Positions 5,351 to 59,292 of a DNA stretch of 64,000 nucleotides are shown piece after piece; the stretch's first letter is position 1; every line of letters begins with the position of its first letter. The notes beneath the pieces are model-generated. The model worked only from the letters and a program-made list of their open reading frames with translations, had not been told where the DNA came from and made no database searches. This DNA is from a virus. The stretch covers positions 1 to 64,000 of the IMG/VR virus record IMGVR_UViG_3300046524_000301, one strand, 5' to 3'. The translations under genes and the position numbers were made by a program.

Positions 5351-5397
5351 CTTTCACCGTCGCTTTAATCAAGTCAACTAGGATACCACACTTCCAA

Positions 5398-5424: not shown

Positions 5425-5453
5425 CTTTGATCATAGCTCTGTAAGCCGTTGAT

Positions 5454-5462
5454 CTTATACCA
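5454..5462 (-). promoter_or_regulatory. Extended -10 promoter overlapping a stop codon
   Basis: Minus-strand GTGGTATAAG. Its TAA is the stop codon of the nuclease gene 5455-6435. It drives leftward to the primase-helicase. Confidence 0.6.
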
Positions 5463-37836: not shown

Positions 37837-39286
37837 CTTTCTTCATCAAATCTTTAACTTCGTCAAACAGGTCCTGCTTCGTATCAGAATTCTCTGACAG
37901 ATACTTGTCGATACTGTACGGCGTCTTACCCCAAAGCGGCTTAGGATGTACGCTGTGAAAATGCTCAACTTCTACTTTGCGTTCTTCTTTGGGTAAATGG
38001 TCATGGCTTCCGAAACGAACTGCACGGCCAACTACTTGATTGATTTTGCTCTTGTTAAAGTGAGGCTCAAGAATTTGTACACGCTTGGTGCCTTTACTGT
38101 CAAGTCCTTCTGAACCAGACGAAGAGATCAACAGAATCTTCTTCTTACCGGAATTGTACTGCTTAACTAATTCATCCTTCTCTTTTCGTGACAACGAACC
38201 ATCATAAATAGCATGATCGATCTTTAATTCTTGCAGTCGTTTTGAATAATCCTTCAGACCTGCATCGAGATAGTTTGAATACACGAGAGCCTTGAAGTTC
38301 TTATCCGTCTTCAGACCGTCCTGGAGGCTCGCTACGGCCTTCTGGATCTTAGGTGAGTACTCACCCTTGCCATCAGCCTTGAGGTGCTTGTAGCCGTTGG
38401 AAACCTGTCTCACGCCTGTCGAGAAGGCATTGAGACTCGACTTTTCTTTCTTGTCCAACGGAAGGTTGTGACGAATCTTCATTCTGAGCAGGAACGGAAT
38501 TTTACCTTCAGTAAACTTGTAATACTTCAACTGTTCCGGGGACATTTCTACATCCACGTTCTTTTCAGTCTTGGAAGGGAAATGATCTTTAGCTTCAGGA
38601 TCATCCTTGCTATCGTAATAGCTCACATACCGCTGAAGCGCTTCTTTAAGTTCCTTACGACGGTCAAGTGTTTTAACAGCTTCAGGTTTAGCACCAAGAA
38701 GCCGTTCTTTAAACCCAGGCTTGACAATTTCGTCCTTAGTGTAACGCTCTTCCATCTTCTTAGAATCTTCAGGAAGAACATTGTCATTAGCAGCGATGTT
38801 AACGAGCGCTGAAATATCAGACAGCTTATTGTAGTTACCCGTAGCGGTAGCTAGAAGACGTCGATCCGCTCCGCTGATAATGTCACGAAGCTCTTTGGTA
38901 CGTTTAGTATTCGTATTGCGAAGTCTGTGAGCCTCGTCGGCAACTACGATCGAGTAATCGTTCTTGCGAAGATTATGAGCTTCGTTTACTGCCTTCTCGT
39001 AGCTCATGACGTCAAGCCTATTCTTGTCAAGGTTGATCTTGTGCTTGAGCAATTCCTTGTCAACGTTAGTAACAAGGCTCGCCGGGGCAATAACCAACGC
39101 TCGTTTCTTCGGATTTTCGTTCTGGTAATGTTCCACAGCTTTAAGGAACGTTTTTGTCTTGCCACTACCAAGGCTATGATGAAGGACAACGCCTTTCTCT
39201 TTTTCAAGATGTTCAAGTGCGTCAATCTGGTTTGGCCGAAGGTCGCTTTTCTGTTTCCGGGCTATTTTTTCTAGATACTTATTCAT
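37829..39286 (-). CDS. SF2 helicase (SNF2/DEAH type), tagged MNKYLEKIA
   Basis: 485 aa. Tag at residues 1-9. Then RPNQIDALEHLEKEKG (Q-motif-like), Walker A HSLGSGKT, DEAH box VVADEAHRLRN, LLATATGN (motif III) and motif VI QVVGRAVRFGSH. Expected role: ATP-driven DNA remodelling or unwinding. First gene of a three-gene unit in which every product carries the tag. Confidence 0.88.
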   Translation of the reverse strand: MNKYLEKIARKQKSDLRPNQIDALEHLEKEKGVVLHHSLGSGKTKTFLKAVEHYQNENPKKRALVIAPASLVTNVDKELLKHKINLDKNRLDVMSYEKAVNEAHNLRKNDYSIVVADEAHRLRNTNTKRTKELRDIISGADRRLLATATGNYNKLSDISALVNIAANDNVLPEDSKKMEERYTKDEIVKPGFKERLLGAKPEAVKTLDRRKELKEALQRYVSYYDSKDDPEAKDHFPSKTEKNVDVEMSPEQLKYYKFTEGKIPFLLRMKIRHNLPLDKKEKSSLNAFSTGVRQVSNGYKHLKADGKGEYSPKIQKAVASLQDGLKTDKNFKALVYSNYLDAGLKDYSKRLQELKIDHAIYDGSLSRKEKDELVKQYNSGKKKILLISSSGSEGLDSKGTKRVQILEPHFNKSKINQVVGRAVRFGSHDHLPKEERKVEVEHFHSVHPKPLWGKTPYSIDKYLSENSDTKQDLFDEVKDLMKKDD

Positions 39287-39337: not shown

Positions 39338-39421
39338 ATGTCACTACTTCAAATTCTATTACATCATCCTATAGATGTAATAATAACGATTGCTATATTG
39401 GTATTAATATGCTGGAATTAA
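39338..39421 (+). CDS. 27-aa hydrophobic peptide (toxin-like or membrane regulator)
   Basis: ATG preceded by CTGGAGG 7 nt upstream and by the promoter at 39304-39312. The peptide MSLLQILLHHPIDVIITIAI continues LVLICWN: one hydrophobic span with a central HHP. Size and hydrophobicity recall TisB/ShoB-type type I toxins, but no homology is claimed. It lies between two minus-strand genes and its stop overlaps the end of 39418-40686. Confidence 0.6.
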   Translation: MSLLQILLHHPIDVIITIAILVLICWN

Positions 39422-40686
39422 TCCTTGAGAACATCGGTTAACGCCGACGATGTTCTTTTTAGATGAGCTGAAAGAGGGTTAACCCCTAGTTTGTAAGCTC
39501 TATTTTTTAACTGTGAAATACGACCTTCAGATTCCACTCCAGCTTTAATCGGTTTCTTGATAAATTGATTATTCAACATATCAACCACTTTCTTACCGTA
39601 CTTGTTATTAGCCACCTTTTTACTAGCCATAAGATTCTTGGCTGTATTTAAACTACCCGCAGCGGGGTCGATAGCAAAGCTTGCAACTGCGCCCGTCAAA
39701 CCTGGTTTTGCAGTAAGATGTCCCGGTACAAAATGCTTACCCTCTGGCTTTGCACCTTTCGTAATATTGGTTGCAATATTGGAAAGCAACGGATGGGTTT
39801 TGTCTTTCCATAACTTAGCCACATCATCGGCTTTACTCATAACATGGTCAAGTGAAGGTAGACCGAGATGTTTGCTGACATGGTTATGAACTGCTTGTAC
39901 CACAGGGTCTCTATGCAAATCGTATTTTTTTAGATCGTTGAACCGACCTTGCGTAAGCATTCTAACAGCTACTCGTTGACGAGGAGTTGCATGGGCAGTA
40001 AGTCCACCTACGGCACGACCTAGATCATGCATTGACTTATGAGCCACGGAGATATCTGGCAGAGTTGCGCCAAGTGCGGTACGCAGCGCTCTAGCCTTGA
40101 TGCTATTATCTACGACACCGCGAGCGCCCTGGGCAAACGAATTGGCCAGATAGCGTGACACACGACGTTTTCCCAAAGCCACATTTGTAGCTACATTTTG
40201 AAGTAAGTGAGTAGCGATTGCACCGCCGATAAACGATGCTTGCTTGTCCATACCTTCTTCTATTTTCTTAAGGTAAGGGTTCTGACTTTTACCCATTCCC
40301 GTAATGTTCCTGAAAATCCATGATTTTTCATTTTCTTTAGTCGGAGATTTCTTAAGCAGGAACTTCTGACCATCTTTGGTGAATATAACCAGCGAGGTTT
40401 CTGTACTGTGTGGAGCTACCATTGCTTTTCTAACCCAATCTAAATGAGTAACGCCAGCGCCATACTGACCAGTAGGGATAACCACTTTCTTGCTTAGCGC
40501 ATATGCTCTGTCATGAACAGGCTGTTCGTAGACTGCAATGATTTCACCTGGACCAGGCATGTCTTTGAGCGTTGCGAAGGAGTACGCCTTATCTCCATGA
40601 ACTAGTCGGAGATCGTAGTGCAGGCCCATTACATCAGCTTCGTGACGTTGCCGGGTGAAAAGGAATTCATCATTGGGTTGTAACAT
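39418..40686 (-). CDS. LigD-type 3'-phosphoesterase domain protein with internal tag
   Basis: 422 aa. Residues 1-130 match the LigD phosphoesterase (PE) domain: RH (15), LHYDLRL (His23), VHDRAY (His58), IPTGQYGAG (70-78), KFLLKKSP. PE domains trim 3' ends before end joining. A tag-like NPYLKKIE lies at residues 136-143, then a helical C-terminal part of about 270 residues of unknown type. Not fused to a ligase, unlike bacterial LigD; the ligase is encoded three genes away. Confidence 0.82.
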   Translation of the reverse strand: MLQPNDEFLFTRQRHEADVMGLHYDLRLVHGDKAYSFATLKDMPGPGEIIAVYEQPVHDRAYALSKKVVIPTGQYGAGVTHLDWVRKAMVAPHSTETSLVIFTKDGQKFLLKKSPTKENEKSWIFRNITGMGKSQNPYLKKIEEGMDKQASFIGGAIATHLLQNVATNVALGKRRVSRYLANSFAQGARGVVDNSIKARALRTALGATLPDISVAHKSMHDLGRAVGGLTAHATPRQRVAVRMLTQGRFNDLKKYDLHRDPVVQAVHNHVSKHLGLPSLDHVMSKADDVAKLWKDKTHPLLSNIATNITKGAKPEGKHFVPGHLTAKPGLTGAVASFAIDPAAGSLNTAKNLMASKKVANNKYGKKVVDMLNNQFIKKPIKAGVESEGRISQLKNRAYKLGVNPLSAHLKRTSSALTDVLKD

Positions 40687-45496: not shown

Positions 45497-47452
45497 ATGG
45501 ATTTCTCCGACATCGCTCTTGCAAAACTGCTTCAAACCGTTCCGGAGCTAGGAAATTACATTATCACGTTTAAGGACGTTTCTGAAGAACTCCAAGATGA
45601 CACTGGCATTCAGGTCGGCGTTTTCGTACTGAGAGTCGGTACTGAAATCTTCTTCATCCCTGTCGTTTCAAAGAACGATAACGTATACCCTATCGACTCT
45701 ATCTTCTTTGACTCGGAAAAGCGGTTTTTCCCGCTGACAAAGAAAACGGTCATGCTCGTCACTTCGTCGAGCCAAATGGACCAAGGTAAGCCTACTGACA
45801 TTCCTAAGACTGTCGTTGGTAATCCTAGCGTTGCGGACATGATTAATCCGCCGCGTACAGGCAAGCATGTTTACGCCAGCTCAAGTCGTCTTACTGAGTT
45901 CATGGCCGCATTGCCTGACTATCTTAAACAAGCAACAATGGAGAAAATCGCTGCCGAAAAATCGGTATATGATTCCCTTGATGAAATGTATGGACTCAAG
46001 GCCATTTTCGACGTACTTAAAAACCGTCCGCAAAGCTTGGCCGCTGTTACTAATGCTGTACCTATTTCAGTTGTTACGGATGCAAATCCGGCAATGACCC
46101 AAGATCAGATCTCCTCAATCCTGAACGACGGTTATCACGTATCGGGCGAACAGCCTTATGCGCGTGTTGCCGTTGCAGTGCAAAATTTCAATACTTCAGG
46201 TACGTTCCGTAACGTTACAAATCTTGATGGAGATAGAGATTTTGAAATTATGCTTTCTAATGGTACGTCTCGTGAAGCATACATTCCTAAAATGTATACT
46301 CTGGGCTCTCGCCCAAGAGGTGTGAGTGGGGATTACGACGCACCCCGTTCGACTCTGGCATTGTTTACAACTGGTGATTATGCTCTGGACGAAGGTTTTA
46401 TCGCAGTAGGTGAAACTCTTGATCGTAGAACTGTTCTTAAAACAATGTTTGATTACAATCCGCCCCTTATGTTGAAAGACGTTGAGAGCGGTGATACAAT
46501 TGTCATCGTGCTAAATTCAGGTGAATTCCTTGGTCCGATTTCGGTAAGCCGAGTATCTCTGAGCAGCTACGGTGTAGAAGTAAAGGGTTCATCATATGAT
46601 TCTGGATATGGGGCATTGACTCTATTCGGGTATCGTAATGTTCCAGGCAATATCAATGTTTGTGGCACGTACGAGCGTAAGGAAATCTATATTCCTTTCA
46701 ACTCAATCGTTATCAAGCTTAAGAAGAATCTGAGTTCCGAACTGGAAGTCAACGTTAATGCTGCAAGTCGTAAGCGTCATATCCATGACATTCAATGGCT
46801 CGGCGATGAAATGAACATCGGTTACGATGGTGTTGAATTCGCTATTAACGGCAAGACTGCTGGCGCTGAAGCCAATGTTATGAAACGTCTGGTTGTTGAT
46901 GAAGGAATCGATCCTGAAGTGGCATCGAGCTTTGTCAAGCAGGCTAAAGAAATCAAGTTCGTTAAGGTTTACATGACTAAACGTGCTGGATTTACGAATG
47001 CCCAAGACGACGGTAACATGCCTCAGTATGGCGACGAAGACCAAACTGGTATTGATCCTGATGAAGTTACGATGAACGGGGCTTATCAGCCTAACGGTCA
47101 GTTTATTCCTAACGTTCAGAATGCACTTGCTACTAACGACGCTCAGGTAACGGAAGCAACCATTATTTCGGAACTGCTTCAAGCTCCTGACATGTTCGAG
47201 TTGATCGAAGAATACCTTCCGGAAATCGAACAAGCCATTGACAAGCTGGGCCGTACTCTGTTCATGGCTCGTGTTCACGTTAGTCGTCTTGCAGAAGCAA
47301 ACGACGCAGATCAGGTTTATGCATTCCTTGCAGGTCTGAAGACTGTATATCGTCTGCTAGGTGATAACTACATCAAGCTCAAGGAATATGCTGCTACTGC
47401 GGACTCTATCGACACTGAGGCACCGGGCAAACAAATGGCCGTCAAAGAGTAA
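45497..47452 (+). CDS. Large hypothetical virion-module protein
   Basis: 651 aa. No known motif. Contains MEKIAAEKSVYD near residue 152 and FVKQAKEIKF near 485, both fitting the K-x-A pattern seen in the head proteins. The C-terminal part is acidic and helical. Own promoter, strong SD-like AAAGGAC. Possibly an internal or neck protein. Confidence 0.65.
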   Translation: MDFSDIALAKLLQTVPELGNYIITFKDVSEELQDDTGIQVGVFVLRVGTEIFFIPVVSKNDNVYPIDSIFFDSEKRFFPLTKKTVMLVTSSSQMDQGKPTDIPKTVVGNPSVADMINPPRTGKHVYASSSRLTEFMAALPDYLKQATMEKIAAEKSVYDSLDEMYGLKAIFDVLKNRPQSLAAVTNAVPISVVTDANPAMTQDQISSILNDGYHVSGEQPYARVAVAVQNFNTSGTFRNVTNLDGDRDFEIMLSNGTSREAYIPKMYTLGSRPRGVSGDYDAPRSTLALFTTGDYALDEGFIAVGETLDRRTVLKTMFDYNPPLMLKDVESGDTIVIVLNSGEFLGPISVSRVSLSSYGVEVKGSSYDSGYGALTLFGYRNVPGNINVCGTYERKEIYIPFNSIVIKLKKNLSSELEVNVNAASRKRHIHDIQWLGDEMNIGYDGVEFAINGKTAGAEANVMKRLVVDEGIDPEVASSFVKQAKEIKFVKVYMTKRAGFTNAQDDGNMPQYGDEDQTGIDPDEVTMNGAYQPNGQFIPNVQNALATNDAQVTEATIISELLQAPDMFELIEEYLPEIEQAIDKLGRTLFMARVHVSRLAEANDADQVYAFLAGLKTVYRLLGDNYIKLKEYAATADSIDTEAPGKQMAVKE

Positions 47453-47461
47453 CCATGAGCA

Positions 47462-48187
47462 ATGAGACCAAATCAACGAGAGCTTCATATTCGTAACAAC
47501 GTCAGAAACGTAGACCCCCTTGTAGATATAATTCTCTCGGGGGTTGAAGGGCCTGAGCGTGACGCCTATTTACAGGCGTGTCCTATTAAAGAATCGAAAT
47601 TAAAAAAAGGATACGTAGAAGCTAGTCTTCTATGTACCAACGATTTCGAAGCTATCTCCCACATCCTAGAGCTTCCAGTGGAAGTAATCCGGATGTATTC
47701 TGCTATCTTCTATGACGTCACTGAATGCGATAAGCTTACAAAAATGGAGCTTCTCGACGTTCGTGATAAAAATGAAGCTAATCTGAAACTCTGGGCTCTA
47801 TCGCAAGGCCTGGAGTTTATTGCTTGGAGAATGGGAAAAGCCGTTCAAGTATCTCCTGTCGATGGACTTGTTGATCTTTTCACTACTTGTCTTTATAAAT
47901 CCCGTGAAGCTATGTTCAGCGGAAACGTTGCAGAAGCATCTAAGGAAGCTACAAAATGGGTCAAATTAAGCATGGACATAGCTCGACTGTTGAAGGTATG
48001 GACAACGGACGCAGGCGCTGCTAAGAAGGATCTAGAGATCGCAATCCGCGAAGTTGTACCTGACTTCCAGGGCTTCGATAGCTTGGACAACTTCGATATC
48101 AAAGAGCTTACAGACCTACCAGCACGTGATCTAGGTCAAGACTTAGACGATAGAGAATCAGAACCGCCATCTGAAGAAAATGAATAA
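47462..48187 (+). CDS. Hypothetical protein before the tagged small protein
   Basis: 241 aa, helical, with acidic tail (DDRESEPPSEENE). A nearby ATG at 47456 leads to a 13-codon frame and is rejected. Its stop overlaps the ATG of 48180-48332 (ATGAATAA). Function unknown; head operon. Confidence 0.65.
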   Translation: MRPNQRELHIRNNVRNVDPLVDIILSGVEGPERDAYLQACPIKESKLKKGYVEASLLCTNDFEAISHILELPVEVIRMYSAIFYDVTECDKLTKMELLDVRDKNEANLKLWALSQGLEFIAWRMGKAVQVSPVDGLVDLFTTCLYKSREAMFSGNVAEASKEATKWVKLSMDIARLLKVWTTDAGAAKKDLEIAIREVVPDFQGFDSLDNFDIKELTDLPARDLGQDLDDRESEPPSEENE

Positions 48188-48332
48188 ATACCTAGAAAAA
48201 ATAGCTGCTAGAAAGAAAGGAGGCCAGCTCCAGGTACGGGCTGGTCAGAAGCCCCTTAAGGTTCCGAAGAGTAAGCCTTTCATGAGTCTCAAGACTAAAA
48301 TAGTGAAGACCAGTAAAGGTCGTAAAGGATAA
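48180..48332 (+). CDS. 50-aa basic protein with tag MNKYLEKIA
   Basis: Exact tag MNKYLEKIA followed by a basic stretch (ARKKGGQLQVRAGQKPLK) ending KTSKGRKG. Too short for usual gene calls, but its ATG overlaps the upstream stop. The Lys/Arg-rich remainder could bind DNA, as expected for an internal head peptide. Confidence 0.7.
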   Translation: MNKYLEKIAARKKGGQLQVRAGQKPLKVPKSKPFMSLKTKIVKTSKGRKG

Positions 48333-48336
48333 AAAC

Positions 48337-49437
48337 ATGGCAAATATCAGCCCTGAACAACTCCGAGATATCTCGATCAGCGCGGTCGAAGACTTCTTGA
48401 ATAACAAAGTTCCACTAAGCGTCGGCTTGGCTAAACAAGCGGCAGCTTATGAACTGAATGAAGAACAGGTTAAACGTGCTGTTGAATCAACAAACAACAT
48501 CGCTTATCTGAAAGTACTGCAGTTGAGCGAAGACCGTACGGTAGAGTTCCCGCTTGCAAAGTACGCTGAAGTCATGGCTTCGGCTACGCTTCCTGATAAC
48601 TTCCAGGAAAAAGTGGCAGCAACTATTAGCGTCGAAAATAAAAACATCGAAAAGACAGCTTCTGCATATCAAATGCGTGAACTGGAATTCGGTGAAAAGA
48701 TTACTTACTTCGTAAAAGAAGCTTCCGCTAATAAGGAATCACTTGAACGTCTACAAATCGAAAGCATTACTGTTGTTGATACTCTTGTCAAGACGGCTAA
48801 GGCTATTGGCAAAGATGAGAAGTGGATGGATAAGCTGGCTTGTGTAACTAGTGAACAGGAATTCAAAGAATTGTCGGTCCTTGTTTCAGGCTCAGTTCAG
48901 AAGTATCGTGACCTCGCAGGTGTTGGTCTTTTCAAAGAAGCCCAACTGAAGGACGTTACTAATTTCTCGAATCTATATAAGCAAGCTCGTGAACTTGTTC
49001 GTGAACAACGTGAAAGATCGAGTCTTCAAAAGCAAGCTGCAGAAACGACTCAAGGCATCAAAACCAATTCATTCGTTAACACGATGAATAATGTTAGTGC
49101 CGGTGCAAAAAACGTAGTTAACAAAACTATTGGTGCTCCTGGCTATGCAGCGGGTTACGTAGCTGGTAGAGTTGCAAAGACTCCTATTGAAGCGGGTAAA
49201 GCCGTCGGAAATGCAGCAATCAAAAGTGTTAAAACGAATACCCAAGCTATTATTGGCGCTGGCGAAAAGTCACAGGCGGTTGCAGTTACCAAAGCTGTTG
49301 GCAAGACTTCAGGTTCTGCTCTAAAGGGCGTATGGAAAGCAGCTAACCCAGTTATGGACGCGGCTCTGTATGACCCAGGTACAGATTCACATACCGGAAG
49401 AAGCAATGACGTATGGTCAGCTCTTCAACGTGATTAA
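48337..49437 (+). CDS. Helical head-operon protein rich in KxA motifs
   Basis: 366 aa, Ala/Lys/Glu-rich and helical. Contains many K-x-A sites (LAKQAAAY, VEKTASAY, FVKEASAN, LVKTAKA, LFKEAQ, LYKQAR, LQKQAAE). The C-terminal part is Gly/Ala-rich. Possible scaffold or internal protein processed in the prohead; inference from position and composition. Confidence 0.6.
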   Translation: MANISPEQLRDISISAVEDFLNNKVPLSVGLAKQAAAYELNEEQVKRAVESTNNIAYLKVLQLSEDRTVEFPLAKYAEVMASATLPDNFQEKVAATISVENKNIEKTASAYQMRELEFGEKITYFVKEASANKESLERLQIESITVVDTLVKTAKAIGKDEKWMDKLACVTSEQEFKELSVLVSGSVQKYRDLAGVGLFKEAQLKDVTNFSNLYKQARELVREQRERSSLQKQAAETTQGIKTNSFVNTMNNVSAGAKNVVNKTIGAPGYAAGYVAGRVAKTPIEAGKAVGNAAIKSVKTNTQAIIGAGEKSQAVAVTKAVGKTSGSALKGVWKAANPVMDAALYDPGTDSHTGRSNDVWSALQRD

Positions 49438-49462
49438 TTAAAGTAAACAAAGGACAATTCAA

Positions 49463-50002
49463 ATGTTAGAAAAAGTTAAAGAGCTAGGTCTTGAAAAATT
49501 CGCTGGCAATGAAGATCTCGCCGACCAATTCGTAGCAGGCTTCATCACTCATGTTTTGATGGAAAAAGAAGCACTTCTGGAAAAAGAAGCGGCTAACCCA
49601 CGTTCAGAGCAAGACATCAGCCGTGAATTTACGGACAATATCGCTGGCCAACTTGGTAAGGGTATTGGCGGTATTGTTTCTCATGGTGCAGTTGGTGGTG
49701 CGATGATTGGTTACCGTTTCGTAACTGACCAATTTAGATACCAACGCTTCCTTAAGTCCTTGCAACATGCTATTGCTTCGTCATCATTCCTTCGTGATCA
49801 GAACCCTGCTAAGGTTGAAAAGTATGCCGATACGATTTACAGATTTGCTCCGCTGGTTGCAGTGGATCCGAATCTGCTACAATCGATCCTTACGAACGCA
49901 GTTCAAGGTGACGGTATCGATCTGATGACTATTAAGAGTCTTACGGATCTTGAAGGCCGCTATCGTGACAACGGTTCGGTTAATCCTAAAGCGTTTGTTT
50001 AA
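49463..50002 (+). CDS. Hypothetical head-operon protein
   Basis: 179 aa. MLEKVKELGLEKFAGNE resembles a diverged tag; KEALLEKEAANP gives another K-x-A site. Glycine-rich middle (GIGGIVSHGAVGGAMIG). Function unknown. Confidence 0.6.
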   Translation: MLEKVKELGLEKFAGNEDLADQFVAGFITHVLMEKEALLEKEAANPRSEQDISREFTDNIAGQLGKGIGGIVSHGAVGGAMIGYRFVTDQFRYQRFLKSLQHAIASSSFLRDQNPAKVEKYADTIYRFAPLVAVDPNLLQSILTNAVQGDGIDLMTIKSLTDLEGRYRDNGSVNPKAFV

Positions 50003-50004
50003 CC

Positions 50005-50325
50005 ATGAATAAGTACCTAGAGAAAATTGCCAGTCTAAGTGAGTTCGGAAAGAGCTTCGCTAAAGGCTGGAAGAGAAGTTCAACAACCTCCAAGATTGGT
50101 CTAGGTATGTCTGCTACCGGTCTTGGGCTAGGTGTTGCGAATCTAGCCAATGGTATAGAGAGCAAACATCGAGGAAATCACATGGCGGATGTGGAAAGTA
50201 AATCTTTAGATCAATTGAAAGATATCGCAGAGGCTTTGAAGAAACGACAGAGCGTTAATGTTCACGTTAAGTTGCCCGAACAAGAGAAAGCTGCTGGTAC
50301 CCAAAACAAATACATTCGTATTTAA
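50005..50325 (+). CDS. 106-aa protein with tag MNKYLEKIA
   Basis: Exact tag at residues 1-9, then a basic segment (KGWKRSSTTSK), a Gly/Ala/Leu-rich stretch that may be membrane-active, and a helical end. Two bp after the preceding stop. No family recognised. Confidence 0.7.
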   Translation: MNKYLEKIASLSEFGKSFAKGWKRSSTTSKIGLGMSATGLGLGVANLANGIESKHRGNHMADVESKSLDQLKDIAEALKKRQSVNVHVKLPEQEKAAGTQNKYIRI

Positions 50326-50339
50326 GTAGTAACTGCCTG

Positions 50340-50345
50340 TAAAAT
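50340..50345 (+). promoter_or_regulatory. TAAAATA-class promoter of the protease gene
   Basis: TGTAAAATATAAATATG, only 6 bp before the ATG at 50352; if used, the mRNA would be almost leaderless. Confidence 0.4.
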
Positions 50346-50351
50346 ATAAAT

Positions 50352-51857
50352 ATGCTAACAAAACTGATCGATACCTCTTCTTTTTACCAAGACGAACCCC
50401 AGGTTACGATTCTTGACAACAGAGACCTTACAGGCAGTCTCATCAAACAGGCTGCGGATTCTCGTATTCAACAATTCGCATCCAAAATCACTCCTATTCA
50501 TGGAAAGACATATCTGCACATCCTCGCTATGGGCGCGGGTGAATTCTATGGTGCCAACCGTAACGCAGACTATTTCCCTGAATCGAATCTCATTGATTAT
50601 CACAATACCTTTGAGACTTCACCCGCCCATATCTTCCGCAACCACGTAAACAAGAACCCTGAAATTGCTATCGGGCGTGTTATCTATTCCGTTTATAACG
50701 ATAGAATGCATCGTGTTGAGCTTATTGCCGAACTGTGGAATGACAAGGCCCCTGACATCGTCGACAAGATCGAAAGCGGTGATTGGCCTAAGACTTCTAT
50801 GGCTTGCCGTACTCCATTCGACGTTTGCAGTATTTGCAGTAACAAGGCTAAGACTCGTGAAGAGTATTGTGAACACTTGAGCGAACAGCTTGGCAGAATT
50901 TATCCAGATGGCCGCAAGGTTATGGCGTTGAATCTGGCTCCGCTTAGATTCTTCGATATCTCTATCGTATTCCGCCCTGCCGACGTAACGAGTTCTGTTC
51001 TACAGAAAGTTGCATCAACAGCTGAAGTTGTTGGTTCTGTAGATGAAGCCATGATGGCTGGCCTATCTGAAATTACGATGCACAAAGCCGCGTCGTTAAA
51101 GAAGCTATCAGAATTACTAAAAGAGGTCGATGGTGATGTTGTATCTGCTGATCCTAGTTTTGATAATCTTGTATCACGAGTTTCTGATCCGAAAGGTGAC
51201 GTTATCGACGTTCTTAGAAACTATAAGCTTAATGAAGTTCTTAGCACCTTGGGTCATCTTGGTATTAGCCCTTCATTGGGTTTTCTGGCAGAACTGATTG
51301 GTCGCAAGATCCTCGGTGACGAAGCTAAGGGCATCGGCCCTATGGCTGCTGCTTATGTGAATAAATCAGGTACTTCTGCACTGATGGACTTTGATCGTGA
51401 CTTCGGTGAAATTACAGAACCTAATATAGGAATTGTGCATGCGCTTCTTCCACACATGGAAGATTCTTCGTATCTGCCGGATTATGTAGAAAGCCGTGTA
51501 GCTATGAATAAGCAAGCATCGATGTATGGATATATGCAAGGTACAAACGTAGGGTACAGCGGAAATGGTCCTCATATCGAACCGACGGTTTATGAAAGGT
51601 TCAGAGAACAGAATCTGGCTAACGCTCCACAAAAGTCTGAACTCTTGCGTGTGTTCAATGCCATCGTAGCAATCGGCGGTGCTGCTCTCGCTGCAAAGTG
51701 GTTCATTACTCAAGTAATTGAGAAGAAAATGAAAGAGCAGGAATTGAACAAGCTTTCAGATGGTGTTAAAATACCTTTAGTTAAATCTGCTTCTGACTAC
51801 AAATTGACTTACAAATTAGCCAAGTCGGCAATGCTAAAGTTGATTCAGAATAAATAG
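50352..51857 (+). CDS. Prohead protease (head maturation protease)
   Basis: 501 aa. The N-terminal part has FYGANRNADYFPE, IFRNHVNK (candidate catalytic His), RMHRVELIAELW and KTSMACRT (candidate catalytic Ser), the layout of herpes-type capsid maturation proteases of large myoviruses. A cysteine cluster follows (FDVCSICSNK ... YCEHL), perhaps zinc-binding. The long C-terminal part contains MNKQAS and ends with K-x-A-rich VKSAS ... LAKSAM. Sits just before the scaffold-like and capsid genes. Confidence 0.8.
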   Translation: MLTKLIDTSSFYQDEPQVTILDNRDLTGSLIKQAADSRIQQFASKITPIHGKTYLHILAMGAGEFYGANRNADYFPESNLIDYHNTFETSPAHIFRNHVNKNPEIAIGRVIYSVYNDRMHRVELIAELWNDKAPDIVDKIESGDWPKTSMACRTPFDVCSICSNKAKTREEYCEHLSEQLGRIYPDGRKVMALNLAPLRFFDISIVFRPADVTSSVLQKVASTAEVVGSVDEAMMAGLSEITMHKAASLKKLSELLKEVDGDVVSADPSFDNLVSRVSDPKGDVIDVLRNYKLNEVLSTLGHLGISPSLGFLAELIGRKILGDEAKGIGPMAAAYVNKSGTSALMDFDRDFGEITEPNIGIVHALLPHMEDSSYLPDYVESRVAMNKQASMYGYMQGTNVGYSGNGPHIEPTVYERFREQNLANAPQKSELLRVFNAIVAIGGAALAAKWFITQVIEKKMKEQELNKLSDGVKIPLVKSASDYKLTYKLAKSAMLKLIQNK

Positions 51858-51859
51858 AT

Positions 51860-51888
51860 TGACTGAAGATTTTCAAAAGGCTACAATC
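51860..51888 (+). promoter_or_regulatory. Sigma70-like promoter TTGACT-N17-TACAAT
   Basis: TTGACT at 51860-51865 and TACAAT at 51883-51888, 17 bp apart, 31 bp before the scaffold-like gene. It differs from the TAAAATA class. Confidence 0.65.
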
Positions 51889-51919
51889 CAGTGGCCTCGT
51901 TCAAAAAGGGATATTAGTC

Positions 51920-53137
51920 ATGATGAATCTAAGTCTTGATGATCTCATCCAGGATCTTGAAAAAAGCGCCGGTCTTACTAAGTCCGCCAGCGAAAAGTCA
52001 GAGAAGGATGAAAAGAAAGATGAAGAAAAAGCCGAGACGGCAGTTTGTAAAGCGGATGAAGAACTAGATACTGCTTGCAAAGCCGACCAAGCTGCTAAGA
52101 AAGAAAATGCCGTCGAACAAAAAGACGACAAGAAGAAAGACGACGAACAAACTAAGGAAGCAGCTGCAAAAGGTGCCGCCTTGGCTAAAGAAGTAATGCA
52201 AAAAGTTGCATCCATTAAACTTGATCAAGTTAATACAGAGGATACTATGAACAAACAAGCTGCTGACGCAGGTAAGGCTCTGGCCGAAGCTCTTCTTGAG
52301 AAGCTGGCTTCAGTCGGTGACCAAAACACCATGAATGGCATTGCCAGTGGTGTTCCGAACAAGACCCAGGTAGACCTGGCTGCTCAAGTAGCAGAACAAG
52401 ATAGCATTATCCAAAACCAACCGGGTACGGATGGTCGTGGTAATGGTGGTACTATCAACCAAATTTTCGATTCAATCGTTTCAGACGCTATGGCTCATGG
52501 TGCTGCTCCGGTTGATCAAAACCCCGCTGCTGGCGTTGCTAAGGAAGAAGGCGCACAAGTTGCTGCTCAGACTCCTAACCAAGGTGGTGTTACGGGTTGG
52601 GTCGATGCTGACCAGCAAGAAAAGGCAGCAGCTGTTTCTGAACTCGTTAGCCAAGGCTTCGACTTCGACGCCGCTGTGAACCTGGTTAAAGAAGCTGCGT
52701 TCGAACTCGAACAAGAAGAAGAAACGCAAGTCAAGCAAGCCGCTTTCGACGCTTTCATCGAACAAGGCTATGACTTCGAATCAGCTGTTGAACTGACAAA
52801 GATCGCTTCGGTTGCCGGTATGGCTGCTCGTGCTGGCCGCAAGGTAAGCGTTGCTGCAGGTCGTACTGCACAAGCTGCAAAGAAGACTGCTAATGGCGTA
52901 GCGTTTGACGCTAACCGCGTTAAGGCTCAAGCTACCCAAGGCTCGTTCAAGGCTCTGGCTAACAACAAGGCTGTCCAACTAGGTGCTGGTGGCGCTGCTG
53001 CCGGTGCAGCCGCTGGTGCATATGCTGTTGGCCGTGAAAAGAAGGCTGCTCTTGACATGCTCATCGCTAACGGCGTTGACTTCGACAGCGCAATCGAAAT
53101 GGTTAACGCTAAATCGACTCAACTGTACGGCTATTAA
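51920..53137 (+). CDS. Scaffold-like protein with repeated DFD motif
   Basis: 405 aa, acidic and Lys/Ala/Glu-rich, highly helical. The N-terminal third is charged (KSEKDEKKDEEK). Three copies of L-x-x-x-G-x-DFD/E-x-A-V/I-x-L/M-V appear near residues 243-257, 277-291 and 378-400. K-x-A sites are frequent (EKSAG, MQKVAS, LEKLAS, KQAAF, TKIAS, KKAAL). Placed between protease and capsid, as expected for a scaffold that the protease degrades. Role is inferred. Confidence 0.65.
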   Translation: MMNLSLDDLIQDLEKSAGLTKSASEKSEKDEKKDEEKAETAVCKADEELDTACKADQAAKKENAVEQKDDKKKDDEQTKEAAAKGAALAKEVMQKVASIKLDQVNTEDTMNKQAADAGKALAEALLEKLASVGDQNTMNGIASGVPNKTQVDLAAQVAEQDSIIQNQPGTDGRGNGGTINQIFDSIVSDAMAHGAAPVDQNPAAGVAKEEGAQVAAQTPNQGGVTGWVDADQQEKAAAVSELVSQGFDFDAAVNLVKEAAFELEQEEETQVKQAAFDAFIEQGYDFESAVELTKIASVAGMAARAGRKVSVAAGRTAQAAKKTANGVAFDANRVKAQATQGSFKALANNKAVQLGAGGAAAGAAAGAYAVGREKKAALDMLIANGVDFDSAIEMVNAKSTQLYGY

Positions 53138-53160
53138 TCCGTAGTCTGACTTAAATTAAG

Positions 53161-53198
53161 GCCCCGCTCTGTACAACATTACGGGCGGGGCTTTTTTT
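53161..53198 (+). terminator. Rho-independent terminator after the scaffold-like gene
   Basis: GCCCCGC pairs with GCGGGGC (7 bp, loop about 17 nt), followed by TTTTTTT. Confidence 0.85.
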
Positions 53199-53212
53199 CT
53201 TGGAGAAAATAA

Positions 53213-53623
53213 TTGAATAAATATTTGGAAAAAATTGCAGGAATGGCTTTTCCGAATTTGGCATCCAGGGGAGTCGGCGCAAGACTTGGCAAAGTTGCGA
53301 AACCATCTAAAGTTGTTTCACCAGGTTCAAAATTAGTTCGCGGGGATAAAACTCTTCTTAGCGCAGCATTACATAAAGCTGCTCAAGAACAGGAATCTAA
53401 TTGGAAACACGACGCTATTGATACTGGAATAATCGGAGGTATCGGTGCAGGTACAGGTTTTGGAGTGCAAAAACTCTCTCCCAAAATTATAGGGGAAGGT
53501 GCAGGACATATGCATAATGCAAAACTTTTGGCATTGACTGGCGCTACAAGTTTGGCTGCTGATTTCGCCGGTGTTAAACTAAATAAAGCGATCAACAAAC
53601 ATGTCGAAAAACAAGTATCTTGA
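53213..53623 (+). CDS. 136-aa protein with tag, TTG start
   Basis: Starts with TTG; tag reads (M)NKYLEKIA. GGAG lies 8 nt upstream. The rest is basic, then Gly-rich (GTGIIGGIGAGTGFGV-like). The last 23 bp overlap the next gene in another frame. Function unknown. Confidence 0.65.
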   Translation: MNKYLEKIAGMAFPNLASRGVGARLGKVAKPSKVVSPGSKLVRGDKTLLSAALHKAAQEQESNWKHDAIDTGIIGGIGAGTGFGVQKLSPKIIGEGAGHMHNAKLLALTGATSLAADFAGVKLNKAINKHVEKQVS

Positions 53624-54053
53624 AAAGGTAGCTGAGTCGTATTCGATGGCTCCGCATCCCGATGATAAGAGTTGGTATGGTGTCGATAAGCTCCATTTGA
53701 ATCGTGAAGAGTTTGCAAAACTTGAAAATGCGGAAGGTATCCATCCGGTTCAAACTGCAGCGTGGGCTCTAGGTGGAGCTACGCTAGGCGGAACGGCAGG
53801 CCATTTTTATACGAAGGCAACTATGCTTCCGTATTTGGCTAGTACCGCTGCAAATGCGCATTTGGATCCGTCCATTGCAACCCATGCATCAAGACTGACA
53901 AATATTGGAAAGTCACGGCTTTTCAAGAATAAGTTTCTCGGTGCAGTGCTTGGACTAGGCCTCGGTGCCCGTATCGCTAACACCAAAGATTACAATAGAC
54001 GACTCGAAAATGCTGGATTCAGCAGAGTCCACAGTGAAGACGAAAATGACTAA
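53601..54053 (+). CDS. 150-aa protein with tag MSKNKYLEKVA
   Basis: Tag at residues 4-11, then a hydrophilic segment and a central Gly/Ala-rich hydrophobic stretch (ALGGATLGGTAGHFY). Overlaps both neighbours. Function unknown; another candidate internal head protein. Confidence 0.68.
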   Translation: MSKNKYLEKVAESYSMAPHPDDKSWYGVDKLHLNREEFAKLENAEGIHPVQTAAWALGGATLGGTAGHFYTKATMLPYLASTAANAHLDPSIATHASRLTNIGKSRLFKNKFLGAVLGLGLGARIANTKDYNRRLENAGFSRVHSEDEND

Positions 54054-54642
54054 ACTATCCTCAATTCTTATGCAACACGCGGAAGACGTTCGTCTTTCGA
54101 CCCCGGAAGCAGTTGCTGTAGAACATCTTAAACAAGCTGGCTATAGCGATAAAGACGCACGATATCAAGTAGCTCAGCACATCATGGAAAAAGAAGCCGC
54201 TTCAGCTTTGGCCATGAAAGGCATCGACCACGAAGACGCTGTGAAATTGGTCAAGGCTGCTAACCTTAATATTTCAGAACTTACGAGCTTTGCACTTCCA
54301 GATGAATCGAACCCTACTGTAGAACTCCTGCAGAAGGCTGCTGAATATATCGAAGCTCTTGAGACACAAATCGCTGGCCTTAAGGGCGATATCGAAAAAC
54401 AAGCTTCGGTACATCAGTCAGAACTCGATCACATCGAAGCTGTGGCTCATATGCCTGAACAGCTTAACAAAATTGCTTCTGCTGCTCAGTTTACCCAAGA
54501 AGATCTCGCTGAACTACAAAGCGTTTCACCCGAGCTTCTGATGAAGGTTGCATCGGCTATCGAAGAACCCTGGGGTATGGGCAATGGCGTAGGTGTAGCA
54601 CGTCCTAAGACTGATCCCCTTCTTGAATTCATGCTAAGTTAA
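54046..54642 (+). CDS. Helical head-operon protein with many KxA sites
   Basis: 198 aa from the ATG (MTKLSSILMQHAEDV), which overlaps the stop of the previous gene. At least seven K-x-A sites (LKQAGY, EKEAAS, VKAAN, QKAAEY, EKQASV, NKIASA, MKVASA). A segment GYSDKDARYQVAQHI resembles the DFD repeats of the scaffold-like protein. Ends in LLEFMLS. Possible core/scaffold component. Confidence 0.62.
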   Translation: MTKLSSILMQHAEDVRLSTPEAVAVEHLKQAGYSDKDARYQVAQHIMEKEAASALAMKGIDHEDAVKLVKAANLNISELTSFALPDESNPTVELLQKAAEYIEALETQIAGLKGDIEKQASVHQSELDHIEAVAHMPEQLNKIASAAQFTQEDLAELQSVSPELLMKVASAIEEPWGMGNGVGVARPKTDPLLEFMLS

Positions 54643-54644
54643 AC

Positions 54645-55124
54645 ATGACAAACAAATACATTGAAAAAATCGCAAGCCTTGCCGATATCGCATCGAAGGC
54701 AGTGGGTGTTGCAAAGCAGGTTCCGGGGGTACTTCGCACGGCTAGTGGTACAGAACTGCGGGGTCTTCAGTCGCAGCAAAGCCGTGCTATGAATCTTGCA
54801 GGACGTGCAGAGGGCAAAGCTAAAACTTTCGGTACTCAAGCTGCTATGAAACCTACTTCGAACCAAGCTGGTTATGCCTATACCAAGGACTTCCAGAACA
54901 AGGTTCACGCTACACCACGTATGCAAACCATTGCCGATCACAATGCATCCCGATCTGAAAAGCTTAAGGCTCACGCTGCTGGTATGCAAGGAAGTATTGA
55001 TAGTACTGAACTCGCTACTCGCCGCGCTCGTTCTACGGTCGGTAAAGTAGGTGCTGGTGTGGCTGTTGCAGGTATTGGTGCTGCTGCTCTTAGCAAGAAG
55101 GATGATTCACAAGGTTATTATTAA
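54645..55124 (+). CDS. 159-aa protein with tag MTNKYIEKIA
   Basis: Tag at residues 1-10 (Ile replacing Leu). The rest is basic and Ala/Gln-rich, perhaps DNA-binding, with a Gly/Ala hydrophobic end (GAGVAVAGIGAAAL). Starts 2 bp after the preceding stop. Confidence 0.68.
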   Translation: MTNKYIEKIASLADIASKAVGVAKQVPGVLRTASGTELRGLQSQQSRAMNLAGRAEGKAKTFGTQAAMKPTSNQAGYAYTKDFQNKVHATPRMQTIADHNASRSEKLKAHAAGMQGSIDSTELATRRARSTVGKVGAGVAVAGIGAAALSKKDDSQGYY

Positions 55125-55125
55125 A

Positions 55126-55386
55126 ATGTCAAATAGATATCTTGAAAAAATCGCCATTCTTGGAATGATATCTGGTTACGCCGGTTCTAAAAAAGGCGAT
55201 AAACTTGGGGGAACCCTTGCAGGTGGAGTTGCTGGAACGGCAACAGGATTACTTGCAATGGCTGCAGGTGGACGTGTCGCTGGTCCTGCTGGGGTAATAG
55301 CAGGTGGTTTGGCGGGAGAAGCGGCTGGTGGATATTACGCTGGTAAACTATATTCTCATCTGAAACACCGCAGCGAAAAGAATTAA
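55126..55386 (+). CDS. 86-aa glycine-zipper protein with tag MSNRYLEKIA
   Basis: Tag (MSNRYLEKIA), then long Gly/Ala-rich stretches with GxxxG spacing (GGTLAGGVAGTATGLLAMA, VIAGGLAGEAAGGYYAG), typical of glycine-zipper membrane proteins. Could insert into or cross a membrane after DNA ejection; speculation. Confidence 0.68.
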   Translation: MSNRYLEKIAILGMISGYAGSKKGDKLGGTLAGGVAGTATGLLAMAAGGRVAGPAGVIAGGLAGEAAGGYYAGKLYSHLKHRSEKN

Positions 55387-55425
55387 GAAAAATAGCCTTT
55401 TTCCCACACTGCATTTATCACGCAT

Positions 55426-55431
55426 TAAAAT
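55426..55431 (+). promoter_or_regulatory. TAAAATA-class promoter of decoration and capsid genes
   Basis: CATTAAAATAGG, 87 bp before the 55519 gene; no clear -35. Two very short frames (16-18 codons) lie in the leader, not called. Confidence 0.5.
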
Positions 55432-55518
55432 AGGAATGTTGTGAACAAATTTAGAGCCGAGTTAAACAATGATTTTACTTGGCTTATTTAAAAAAGAAAC
55501 ATATACAAGGAAACAAAT

Positions 55519-55941
55519 ATGTTAATGGAACGTAACGCAGAAATCATCCGTGGCTGGCCGTACGATGGTTCTCTAGAGCGCGTCGAACCGATTACAGCTG
55601 CTGCTACTCTGCAAAATGGTGACTGGATTACCAAACAGAGCGATAACACTGTTAATAAAACCGGTGCGTCGGCGTCAAACAATGTAGGCCTGGTAATCGT
55701 CGGTAATGGTGATAGTGGTTCGGCAGCATACGCAGGTAAGGCAGTTGTTCTTTGGGGTAACTTCCTGGCTAAGATTTCGAACTATGCAGCTGGTGCTTAT
55801 GCTCCTGGCTCGCCGCTGACGGTGAAGAGTGGTCAACTGGCACTTGCTAACGGTACTACTGACCCGGTTATTGGTTTCGTACTTGACGTTGTGGCTGGCG
55901 CTACGACGGAAACCGCTCACCTTACAATCAAAGTAGCGTAA
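55519..55941 (+). CDS. Putative capsid decoration/stabilising protein
   Basis: 140 aa, Ala/Gly/Thr/Val-rich, beta-type, no tag. Directly upstream of the capsid gene, the usual place of head decoration proteins. Sequence such as GDWITKQSDNTVNKTG and SPLTVKSGQLALANG fits a small beta-barrel decoration fold. Strong AAGGAAACAAAT leader. Confidence 0.65.
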   Translation: MLMERNAEIIRGWPYDGSLERVEPITAAATLQNGDWITKQSDNTVNKTGASASNNVGLVIVGNGDSGSAAYAGKAVVLWGNFLAKISNYAAGAYAPGSPLTVKSGQLALANGTTDPVIGFVLDVVAGATTETAHLTIKVA

Positions 55942-55955
55942 TAGGGATAATTAAA

Positions 55956-56849
55956 ATGAGCGCATATTCGACAGAAACCGTAAACGTACAATTCCTGAAT
56001 CAATCTTTCCTCGACAAGATTGACCAAGGTCACACTAAAGAAGCTTCAGCTGCTATGTCAGCTTTCGTACGTCAGAAGCTTCGTGAAGACGGCTTTACCC
56101 GTAAGATTCTTACCCCGGTTCAAATCACAGCTTCAGAGCTGGATCGCCAACTGACGGAAGAGCCGACGGTTATCGTTGAAAAAGAACCGGATTCGGTTGC
56201 AGCTACTGCTCCATTCCTGGGCCGTCCGGAAATTCGTTACTGGAAAACTTCACGTTATCCGGTGACTTTCCAAAAGATCATGTCGCAAGATTTCCGCAAG
56301 AGCAAGTTCGAACTCGCTACGTATCGTACCGACATTCGCACGATCCTGCAGGAAAACAGCGTTAAGGATATCCAAGAGCAAGAAGACGTAAACTTTTACA
56401 ACAACATTCTGTCAATCGCTACGGCGAACAGCAATGTTCACACCATCGGTGGCGGCTTCACGAAAGCTAACCTGATGGCTGGTATTAAGTTCATGCTTCT
56501 GAATAAGCTGCCGGTTGGTTGTATCCTTATGACGCAATCGATGTATGCTGATCTGCTGACTTTTGCCGCAACTGACGTGGGTTCGCCTGCCGCTTCGGAT
56601 CTGTTCCGTGGTGAAGGTACGCTCGATACGTTCTTCGGTTACAAGATCATCACGACGAACAAGGCTAACATCCTCCCGACGAACCAAGCACTTGTGTTTG
56701 CTCCGCAGAACTACCTAGGTCAGTTCTATGAGTTGCAAGCTCCTACGGTCTTCCTGAAGACTGAAGCAGACATTATCGAATTCCACGCATACGAAGCTGT
56801 AGGCGCAGGTATCGGTAACGTGAACGGTGCAGTTGTTCTAAACTTCTAA
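55956..56849 (+). CDS. Major capsid protein
   Basis: 297 aa. Placed after protease, scaffold and decoration genes; beta/alpha mix and segments such as EIRYWKTSRYPVTFQKI, YRTDIRTILQEN and ITTNKANILPTNQA fit an HK97-fold capsid of large myoviruses. N-terminal HTKEASAAM (residues 26-34) contains a K-x-A site where maturation cleavage may occur. No tag. Followed by a strong terminator. Confidence 0.82.
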   Translation: MSAYSTETVNVQFLNQSFLDKIDQGHTKEASAAMSAFVRQKLREDGFTRKILTPVQITASELDRQLTEEPTVIVEKEPDSVAATAPFLGRPEIRYWKTSRYPVTFQKIMSQDFRKSKFELATYRTDIRTILQENSVKDIQEQEDVNFYNNILSIATANSNVHTIGGGFTKANLMAGIKFMLLNKLPVGCILMTQSMYADLLTFAATDVGSPAASDLFRGEGTLDTFFGYKIITTNKANILPTNQALVFAPQNYLGQFYELQAPTVFLKTEADIIEFHAYEAVGAGIGNVNGAVVLNF

Positions 56850-57342: not shown

Positions 57343-57612
57343 TCACGCTGATTTCTTCCTATTGTCAGCCAGGAACATAACTACTTTAGATTCCATCTGT
57401 TTTCTATTTACCAGATACCGTTTTTCTACATAGTCAAACAACTCTTCTAACAATGCCTTTACAACTTTATCCCCGTAGTTCATACTCAACGCACGATCTA
57501 CCGCTACTATCTTCCTCTTTATCTCTGGATCTTTCTCCCCCCACCTGTCTATGGACACGACCATAGGCCAAGGCGCTCTGCTTACAAAGTTTGTCATCTC
57601 GCTAATCTTCAT
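57343..57612 (-). CDS. Hypothetical protein of the minus islet
   Basis: 89 aa, MKISEMTNFVSRAPWPMV; mixed helical, no motif. CAGGAGAG ribosome site. First gene of the islet, promoter at 57657-57665. Confidence 0.65.
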   Translation of the reverse strand: MKISEMTNFVSRAPWPMVVSIDRWGEKDPEIKRKIVAVDRALSMNYGDKVVKALLEELFDYVEKRYLVNRKQMESKVVMFLADNRKKSA

Positions 57613-57656
57613 GGTCTCTCCTGGAAGAGTTATAGACTACGGGTGTTTCTATACTT

Positions 57657-57665
57657 CTTATACCA
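57657..57665 (-). promoter_or_regulatory. Extended -10 promoter TGGTATAAG
   Basis: Minus-strand AATTGGTATAAG, 45 bp before 57612; the only minus-strand copy inside the head/tail operon. Confidence 0.65.
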
Positions 57666-57689
57666 ATTTCATTGGTTCGTCTTCTCTGT

Positions 57690-57695
57690 TAAAAT
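57690..57695 (+). promoter_or_regulatory. TAAAATA-class promoter
   Basis: TGTTAAAATACG, 27 bp before the 57722 ATG, with TTTCAT 17 bp upstream as a poor -35. It restarts plus-strand transcription after the minus islet. Confidence 0.5.
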
Positions 57696-57721
57696 ACGTC
57701 TGTAAATTACAGGAAACCAAC

Positions 57722-58030
57722 ATGGCAGGTAAATTTAATAGATACCTATCCAAGACTATTAACATGCTAGATTCGGTACATGGCAAAACGTCCAAAGAAT
57801 GGGCTACGAAGGCACGTGTGCTTAATGAAGCTAAAGTCACAGGTCTAACGGCTACCCGCGCCTCGCGTAAGGCAAAGGTCAGCAATGGCAGGACATTTCA
57901 GAATCGTGTAAAACTTGGTGTTGGTGGAGGTGTTGCTTTGACTGGAGGTCTTCTAGGCTTGCATAAATACATGCAATATCAGAACAATAAGATTCTGGCC
58001 AGAATTGACAAAATGTACAATAAGCAATAA
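57722..58030 (+). CDS. 102-aa basic protein with diverged tag
   Basis: MAGKFNRYLSKTINML is a diverged form of the tag (NRYLSKTI for NKYLEKIA). The rest is Lys/Arg/Ala-rich with a Gly-rich segment (GVGGGVALTGGLLG). Longer in-frame extension upstream crosses promoters and is rejected. Candidate internal head protein. Confidence 0.62.
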   Translation: MAGKFNRYLSKTINMLDSVHGKTSKEWATKARVLNEAKVTGLTATRASRKAKVSNGRTFQNRVKLGVGGGVALTGGLLGLHKYMQYQNNKILARIDKMYNKQ

Positions 58031-59019: not shown

Positions 59020-59292
59020 ATGAATAAGTATCTTGAAAAAATAGCCGAACTTTCTGATGACAGTGCATTAGGAATCGTTATGGACCTGACTCACAAGCAC
59101 TTCGATTCAAGCATGAAGCCCGATCACGCATTTTTTCCAAAAAACCGTCAAACCAAAGCTGCAACTACTATCGCTGCGCAGAGATTGGTAGCGGCTATAG
59201 GAAGCAGATTTGGAAAAATCAAACCTGGCGATCATCACAAACTTACAACTCCTCGTAAAGTAGCCGAGTACTTTAAGAACGACACTCCTTAA
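59020..59292 (+). CDS. 90-aa protein with tag MNKYLEKIA
   Basis: Exact tag, then AELSDDSALGIVMDLTHKHF and a basic half. Its codons for the tag differ from other copies. No family recognised. Two bp before the next start. Confidence 0.7.
   Translation: MNKYLEKIAELSDDSALGIVMDLTHKHFDSSMKPDHAFFPKNRQTKAATTIAAQRLVAAIGSRFGKIKPGDHHKLTTPRKVAEYFKNDTP

Follow-up and report, generated by a model that had tools for sequence, protein, structure and literature searches.

The prohead protease gp21 of phage T4 recognizes the code I/L-x-E, the phiKZ-type code is S/A-x-E, and herpesvirus assemblin has a His-Ser-His triad, an Ala|Ser consensus, and a release site directly after its catalytic domain. According to the accessible parts of the literature, the head proteases of T4, phiKZ, 201phi2-1, and SPN3US all cut after Glu, and those of giant phages (phiKZ gp175 and SPN3US gp245) perform both self-cleavage and capsid cleavage (PMC5694885); for SPN3US, the code is given as A-X-E, and Ser is the favored residue on the far side of the cut (PMC10052503). 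The otherwise diverse internal proteins of T4 are described, in the part of the source available, as sharing only a capsid-targeting sequence (CTS), which loads them into the prohead core (PMC3012670). Here, we describe a candidate Lys-x-Ala protease code and an N-terminal tag ending in the same pattern in a 64,000-nt stretch of viral DNA (IMG/VR record IMGVR_UViG_3300046524_000301, positions 1 to 64,000; hereafter, the window), which is part of a 72.6-kb virus contig. The head block of this contig (approximately 45.5–56.8 kb) encodes a structural protein, a scaffold-like protein, small tagged proteins, a protease, two more core-like proteins, a decoration protein, and a capsid protein. We infer, with a probability of about 0.86, that a T4 gp21-like protease cuts these head proteins at hydrophobic-x-Lys-x-Ala sites, and that a T4-like capsid-targeting tag brings further proteins into the prohead, where it is clipped off afterwards at the LEKIA site that it carries.

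The closest parallels are with T4. The window protease gene is likewise located among core and scaffold genes just upstream of the capsid gene, the core proteins carry many sites, and the best fold match of the protease model, albeit a weak model, is T4 gp21 (PDB entry 5JBL); self-release and capsid trimming would be additional common features. The two proteases would differ in specificity, since the window protease is predicted to cut behind the Ala of Lys-x-Ala, whereas T4 gp21 cuts after Glu. With phiKZ gp175 and SPN3US gp245 the window protease would share a preference for Ser after the cut, self-cleavage, and capsid cleavage, all by a phage-coded head protease; however, as far as the available descriptions go, those systems have Glu at the cut and long propeptides on several substrates, and no short tag across dozens of proteins. 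Herpesvirus assemblin would be similar in having Ala before and Ser after the cut and a release site behind the catalytic domain, and different in that the window code has Lys two residues before the cut; no herpes protease was present among the 50 PDB fold matches listed for the weak model. The T4 CTS is, in the literature available to us in part, the closest known arrangement to the window tag: both are short N-terminal peptides common to unrelated proteins, although the window tag ends at a protease site pattern, has other letters, is carried by many more proteins, including enzymes, and also occurs inside polyproteins. Salmonella phage Arash (Arashvirus) and Vibrio phage D181 share with the window the order of the genes, the protease, the scaffold, the capsid, and the code, but not the NKYLEKIA tag. 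Among the results listed by searches of open-licence literature, no publication dealt with the letters of the tag or treated K-x-A as a head code.

The strict pattern hxKxA (h = Leu, Met, Ile, or Phe) was counted in 57 window genes and compared with 2000 shuffles of each protein. Seven genes, all on the plus strand, showed an excess at p < 0.05: the scaffold-like protein of 366 aa (48337–49437; 10 sites versus 1.3 expected), a 179-aa head-block protein (49463–50002; 4 versus 0.4), the 501-aa protease (50352–51857; 6 versus 1.0), two core-like proteins of 405 aa (51920–53137; 7 versus 1.7) and 198 aa (54046–54642; 6 versus 0.6), a structural protein homologous to Arash Gp218 (45497–47452; 4 versus 1.0), and a tagged protein (53213–53623; 3 versus 0.6). 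None of the remaining 50 genes reached this threshold, and the look-alike patterns hxExA, hxKxE, hxQxA, and hxRxA did not reach it in any head-block gene. When 43 non-head genes of the window were pooled (leaving out the genes at 59020 and 55126 and the capsid gene), KxA was found 68 times versus 66.1 expected (rank 951). The initial annotation of this locus, which had proposed that such sites are enriched in head proteins and had suggested a comparison with shuffled sequences, is thus borne out, the excess being confined to head genes. Its count of seven sites in the 198-aa protein holds if HLKQA, with His in the first place, is included, the strict count being six; the sites that it placed at the protease C-terminus are present as LVKSA (residues 476–480) and LAKSA (489–493).

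An unprompted scan, in which each of the 2400 possible pairs of residues at spacings of up to six positions was ranked by over-representation with no pattern preset, gave the same result. Ten head blocks were taken as hand-picked ranges upstream of the capsid gene, with capsid identity among the relatives down to 26%; KxA was the top pair in nine of them (the window, Arash, Vibrio phage D181, and six IMG/VR contigs) and second in the tenth. LxK, MxK, or IxK was within the top eight pairs in six of the ten blocks, and none of the Glu-ending code pairs (LxE, IxE, AxE, and SxE) was so in any of the ten; in the window block, where KxA is first, these rank 269, 602, 1813, and 1392, respectively. 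One window gene with a single KxA (47462–48187) had been left out by hand, and with it KxA is still first (z-score 6.2). A second set of 12 blocks was selected by the tag, each running from 3.2 kb before the protease up to the capsid gene; of the ten that were scanned, five had KxA as the top pair and every one had it among the first three. This set contains near-copies (L136/L137 and L142/L143), and L134 and L135 were left out because the open reading frame (ORF) caller missed their capsid gene. The scans also leave out L027, whose block is partial.

The same scan recovered the known T4 code from gp67, gp68, gp21, and gp22 (IxE first, LxE third), with KxA at rank 65 in these helical core proteins. 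For SPN3US, the first 160 residues of five head proteins yielded ES and AxxS, which are parts of A-x-E|S, with AxE at rank 22. Among genes past the capsid in five relatives, KxA had z-scores of 0.5, −2.0, −1.8, 1.8, and 2.6, and in 30 random non-head sets of approximately 2600 aa each it never exceeded 2.0 (the top pair had mostly 3.6–4.9, and CxxC up to 7.5). In phage G, KxA ranks first for the chosen proteins gp15, 19, 20, and 21, and sixth for nine genes (gp15–21, 24, and 25); no enrichment was observed in Gordonia phage Stormageddon (rank 149) and Rhodococcus phage E3 (rank 753). The protease/LysM proteins of Mycobacterium phage Phabba (L047) have RxA as their second-ranked pair, which may represent an Arg variant of the code.

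Among the 275 ORFs of Arash, the seven largest hxKxA excesses belong to gp220, gp223, gp242, gp225, gp222, gp4, and gp218, five of which are head-block genes; all seven proteins appear in the published virion list (PMC10585845). The other two, gp242 (174466–175335; 8 hxKxA sites versus 1.2 expected) and gp4 (2528–5821; 7 versus 2.4), are virion proteins whose genes lie elsewhere than in the head block, and may be considered candidate further substrates. Arash Gp206 (130093–134670), the virion RNA polymerase beta protein with the most spectra of the virion proteins, begins with MPKSA|S, a minimal K-x-A.

Conservation of the sites was assessed in six head proteins aligned with their relatives, with His and Gln also permitted in the first place. 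In close relatives (L004, L005, and L009), the site Lys and Ala are kept at 0.95 and 0.94, compared with 0.74 for the x before Lys, 0.71 for the x between, and 0.74 and 0.62 for other Lys and Ala residues. For L025, the respective values are 0.77 and 0.74 for the site residues, 0.46 and 0.46 for the x positions, and 0.38 and 0.44 for other Lys and Ala, and for Arash and D181 they are 0.50 and 0.51, 0.17 and 0.26, and 0.22 and 0.27. Conserved Lys and Ala with free x positions at three evolutionary distances are the pattern expected from selection on Lys/Ala recognition. Across 470 KxA sites of the ten head blocks, the residue at P5 is typically Leu, Met, Phe, or Ile, and that at P4 is Glu or Val. 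The residue following the site Ala (P1') is enriched in Ser (107 versus 32 expected), Glu (63 versus 36), and Ala (79 versus 52), and Lys, Leu, Ile, and Pro are under-represented there. The preference for Ser suggests Ala|Ser as the scissile bond.

The protease itself (50352–51857) matches the PHROG head maturation protease family (2e-6), and residues H98 and S149, invariant in an alignment of 14 sequences, probably represent the catalytic pair. A PDB sequence search with this protein gave nothing convincing. By structure, T4 gp21 chains (5JBL) provide the top three PDB fold matches (probability 0.99, E 0.005–0.02), obtained with a model of low confidence, and the viral structure matches of the same weak model include phage prohead proteases and phage G Gp19. 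All 23 non-redundant proteases of this family have a K-x-A site before the catalytic core and another directly after it; in the window protease these are LIKQA in the pro-segment (residues 30–34, 50439–50453) and the putative release site LQKVA|S (residues 217–221, 51000–51014), of which K219 and A221 are invariant among the 14 aligned sequences. The 23 comprise 19 proteases used for the core count, three (L139, L140, and L144) excluded from it for having no FFDIS string, and a 1371-aa protease of L028, which was kept out of the alignments and the core count and whose two sites were checked separately. Within the core, the 19 proteases have 8 sites per 3356 aa versus 107 per 6224 aa outside, although the N-terminal border of the core was set by the last N-terminal site and the comparison is therefore circular in part; leaving aside the 42 flanking matches still gives 65 per 6224 aa outside. 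As the core is flanked by sites in every protease, auto-processing is predicted. The distant homolog gp19 of phage G (L046:8841–9743) has LVKTA, ending at residue 45, and LEKVA, ending at residue 250, at the corresponding core borders. The long L028 frame (L028:3797–7912) contains an intein-like insert in the catalytic core that begins at Cys after GEYYG; it retains both sites, LEKTA (residues 25–29) and MKKVA (967–971), despite the insert.

The major capsid protein (55956–56849, plus strand) is modeled with an HK97 fold; Phage_capsid, below its cut-off, was the one sensible Pfam match among 10 head-block proteins. The predicted processing site of the capsid protein is HTKEA|S (residues 26–30, 56031–56045). 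The initial annotation had listed TKEA at residues 27–30 as a site of the same pattern; the letters are present, but the first residue is His rather than hydrophobic, and a single site cannot count as enriched. The position is nevertheless fixed: Lys is found in 19 of 19 non-redundant capsids (18 sequences were covered by the alignment), the final residue is Ala in 16, Gly in two, and Ser in one, and in most relatives the site opens with Leu or Met. The rest of the capsid protein has 8 sites per 5350 aa in the 19 capsids. Taken with the head-only enrichment, the Lys/Ala specificity, the conservation, and the placing at the core borders, this fixed site strongly supports K-x-A as the code of the neighboring prohead protease, in agreement with the initial suggestion that the protease may cut after this pattern.

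The tag M-x0-4-N-K/R-Y-L-E-K-I-A begins ten genes of the contig, as found by pattern search. Six are in the head block, all on the plus strand: a small protein with MNKYLEKIA (48180–48332), a second protein with MNKYLEKIA (50005–50325), and proteins with NKYLEKIA after a TTG start (53213–53623), MSKNKYLEKVA (53601–54053), MTNKYIEKIA (54645–55124), and MSNRYLEKIA (55126–55386). A seventh, on the same strand, has MNKYLEKIA (59020–59292). The coordinates of the initial annotation (45497–56849) did not extend to the three minus-strand carriers at 36–39 kb. These lie consecutively at 36257–39286 and encode an SNF2-type helicase with MNKYLEKIA (37829–39286; Pfam SNF2-rel_dom, 1.6e-19), a 72-aa protein with MTNKYLTKIA (37618–37836), and an ATP-dependent DNA ligase-like protein with MNKYLEKVA (36257–37618; PHROG ATP-dependent DNA ligase, 3.4e-16, matching from residue 146); the three products are probably head-carried enzymes. 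The helicase and the ligase-like protein thus look like enzymes from their sequence matches, and relatives have another tagged helicase as well as a tagged protein with a weak resemblance to PARP. Inside the ligase-like protein, IQKQA|S lies at the boundary of the ligase part. A gene near it on the minus strand (39418–40686) encodes a protein whose N-terminal domain resembles a LigD 3'-phosphoesterase, although the match falls short of the Pfam cut-off. At 57551–58030, an internal start yields FNRYLSKTINML, which is tag-like without the Ala and common to the relatives L004, L005, and L008; is this a decayed or an uncut tag?

The reversed tag pattern was found 0 times in the 10 records searched, and also 0 times in 13 further records, chosen for having the tag, with 2 to 13 tags each. 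An IMG/VR search by the tag pattern alone retrieved 51 stretches in 29 contigs, 12 of which were already known via the protease or capsid. Thirteen of the other 17 records carry a protease of this family, and the same 13 carry its capsid gene, the remaining four being fragments of 36–47 kb. Over all loci, 109 different sequences carry the tag when alternative starts are treated as separate entries, and they fall into 39 groups with no blastp similarity (1e-4) past the first 12 residues. In the window and L003–L042, which had not been chosen by the tag, 38 of the 49 distinct N-termini with N[K/R]Y, many of them from closely related contigs, continue as xxKxA, and conservation falls right after the Ala. 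The letters of NKYLEKIA, its placing, and its partners support a putative role as a removable head-loading address. The presence of the code without the tag in Arash and D181 indicates that the two are separable.

Six open frames contain two or three tags each (L074:10684, L088:9473, L102:9854–10705, L055:1795–3699, L096:3045–3770, and L084:3059). The first 163 residues of the L074 and L088 frames are 95% alike and their second modules differ; in neither frame do the 12 codons preceding the internal tag include an in-frame start, so that both look like true fusions. The second module of L055 resembles stand-alone tagged proteins of L080, L065, and L085 (27–32% identity), and the L102 frame, which has three modules, opens with one that matches the beginning of a separate L139 ORF at 88% identity over 84 residues. 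Five of the seven internal junctions (two in L102 and one each in L055, L074, and L088, the last two being related) have an extra K-x-A that ends 1–3 residues ahead of the internal tag; in two of these the first residue is hydrophobic, and the junctions of L096 and L084 have no K-x-A directly before the tag. At L102, L055, and L096, where ATG or GTG is kept, internal starts could still be used.

In the mechanism we propose, the protease would enter the prohead as a precursor, and its catalytic domain (residues 35–221) would be freed by cuts at LIKQA-34 and LQKVA-221. It would cut after Ala in [Leu/Met/Ile/Phe]-x-Lys-x-Ala, favoring Ser and then Glu or Ala as the next residue, chop the scaffold and core proteins into small peptides, and trim the capsid protein after residue 30. 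The M-x0-4-NKYLEKIA peptide would act as a capsid-targeting tag like that of T4 internal proteins, bringing the helicase, the ligase-like protein, and small proteins into the prohead core, and would then be removed at its own LEKIA site.

Could the pattern merely reflect a preference of scaffold and core proteins for Ala/Lys-rich amphipathic helices, with no protease involved? Head-core proteins are Ala/Lys-rich and probably helical, and Leu or Met two residues before Lys, seen in the enrichment of LxK and MxK, would suit one face of a helix; the initial annotation had itself cautioned that such composition could produce sites by chance. That caution is countered by the shuffles, which keep composition and still leave 10 sites versus 1.3, by the flat counts of the equally helix-compatible hxExA, hxRxA, and hxQxA, and by the T4 core proteins, which lack the KxA pattern. 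Moreover, conserved sites are found at the capsid N-terminus and where the chain leaves the protease catalytic domain, and the Ser excess and the Pro, Lys, Leu, and Ile deficit after the site do not follow simple helix rules, so that we consider a purely helical origin very improbable. Only slightly less improbable is that K-x-A serves as an uncut docking motif through which the scaffold, the protease, the capsid, and the cargo all attach to a common partner in the prohead core. Docking would equally account for the tag, the scaffold repeats, and the restriction to head proteins, and a docking tag needs no cleavage; on the other hand, it does not call for sites at both ends of the catalytic core, their rarity inside it, Ser next to the site, or sites ahead of internal polyprotein tags. 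For the tag, docking and cutting may both be true.

A protease cutting at K-x-A is also compatible with a NKYLEKIA tag unrelated to packaging, e.g., a translation or degradation signal. We regard this as unlikely, although less so than the two alternatives above: the tag ends in the head code with conservation falling after its Ala, six of its ten carriers on the window contig are in the head block, and 13 of the 17 records selected by the tag alone encode this protease. What speaks for it is that none of the tagged proteins is known from a virion, that the other four tagged genes are outside the head block, and that the Arash homolog of the window helicase, Gp217 (39% identity, aligned from residue 16), is untagged; Gp217 is represented by 1148 spectra in virions, according to the accessible part of the source (PMC10585845). 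Several further observations weigh against the combined cleavage and tag system proposed here. Arash and D181 have the code though not the tag. The protease model is weak (mean predicted local distance difference test score, pLDDT, 51.5), and the SPN3US control is partial, as the scan of full-length SPN3US head proteins missed their own code (AxE at rank 28). The Gly and Ser endings in three capsids, and the non-hydrophobic first residue in three of the 19 (that of the window among the latter), mean that the code is not strict, and the N-terminus of the phage G capsid has no K-x-A site. In the available virion data for Arash, the scaffold Gp220 is still detected (6 unique peptides, listed coverage 95.77%), as are peptides of the protease Gp222 (listed coverage 84.93%), although these coverage values are hard to reconcile with the peptide counts (PMC10585845). 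Such retention is unlike full degradation and loss; fragments of the Arash scaffold and protease may be retained inside the head.

Beyond this locus, the tag and the code may constitute a general modular head-loading system, which we consider somewhat more probable than the contrary. A tag of approximately 10 residues would then be both an entry ticket and a removable leader on dozens of unrelated proteins, reused in polyproteins where the protease would separate the modules and excise the tag, and the Ala|Ser bond would tie a T4-type protease to herpesvirus specificity.

If the proposed cleavage is true, a group cutting after Lys-x-Ala would demonstrate a specificity shift in a protease fold that is otherwise described, in the literature available in part, as Glu-cutting. 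The unprompted pair scan offers a general route to protease codes from phage genomes, and the code, if the proposed cleavage is true, would provide a rule for predicting mature head proteins in many unannotated phages. Likewise, if its proposed role is true, the tag would flag, from sequence alone, proteins that are carried into the host in the phage head, and it is short enough to be tried as a loading address for other proteins.

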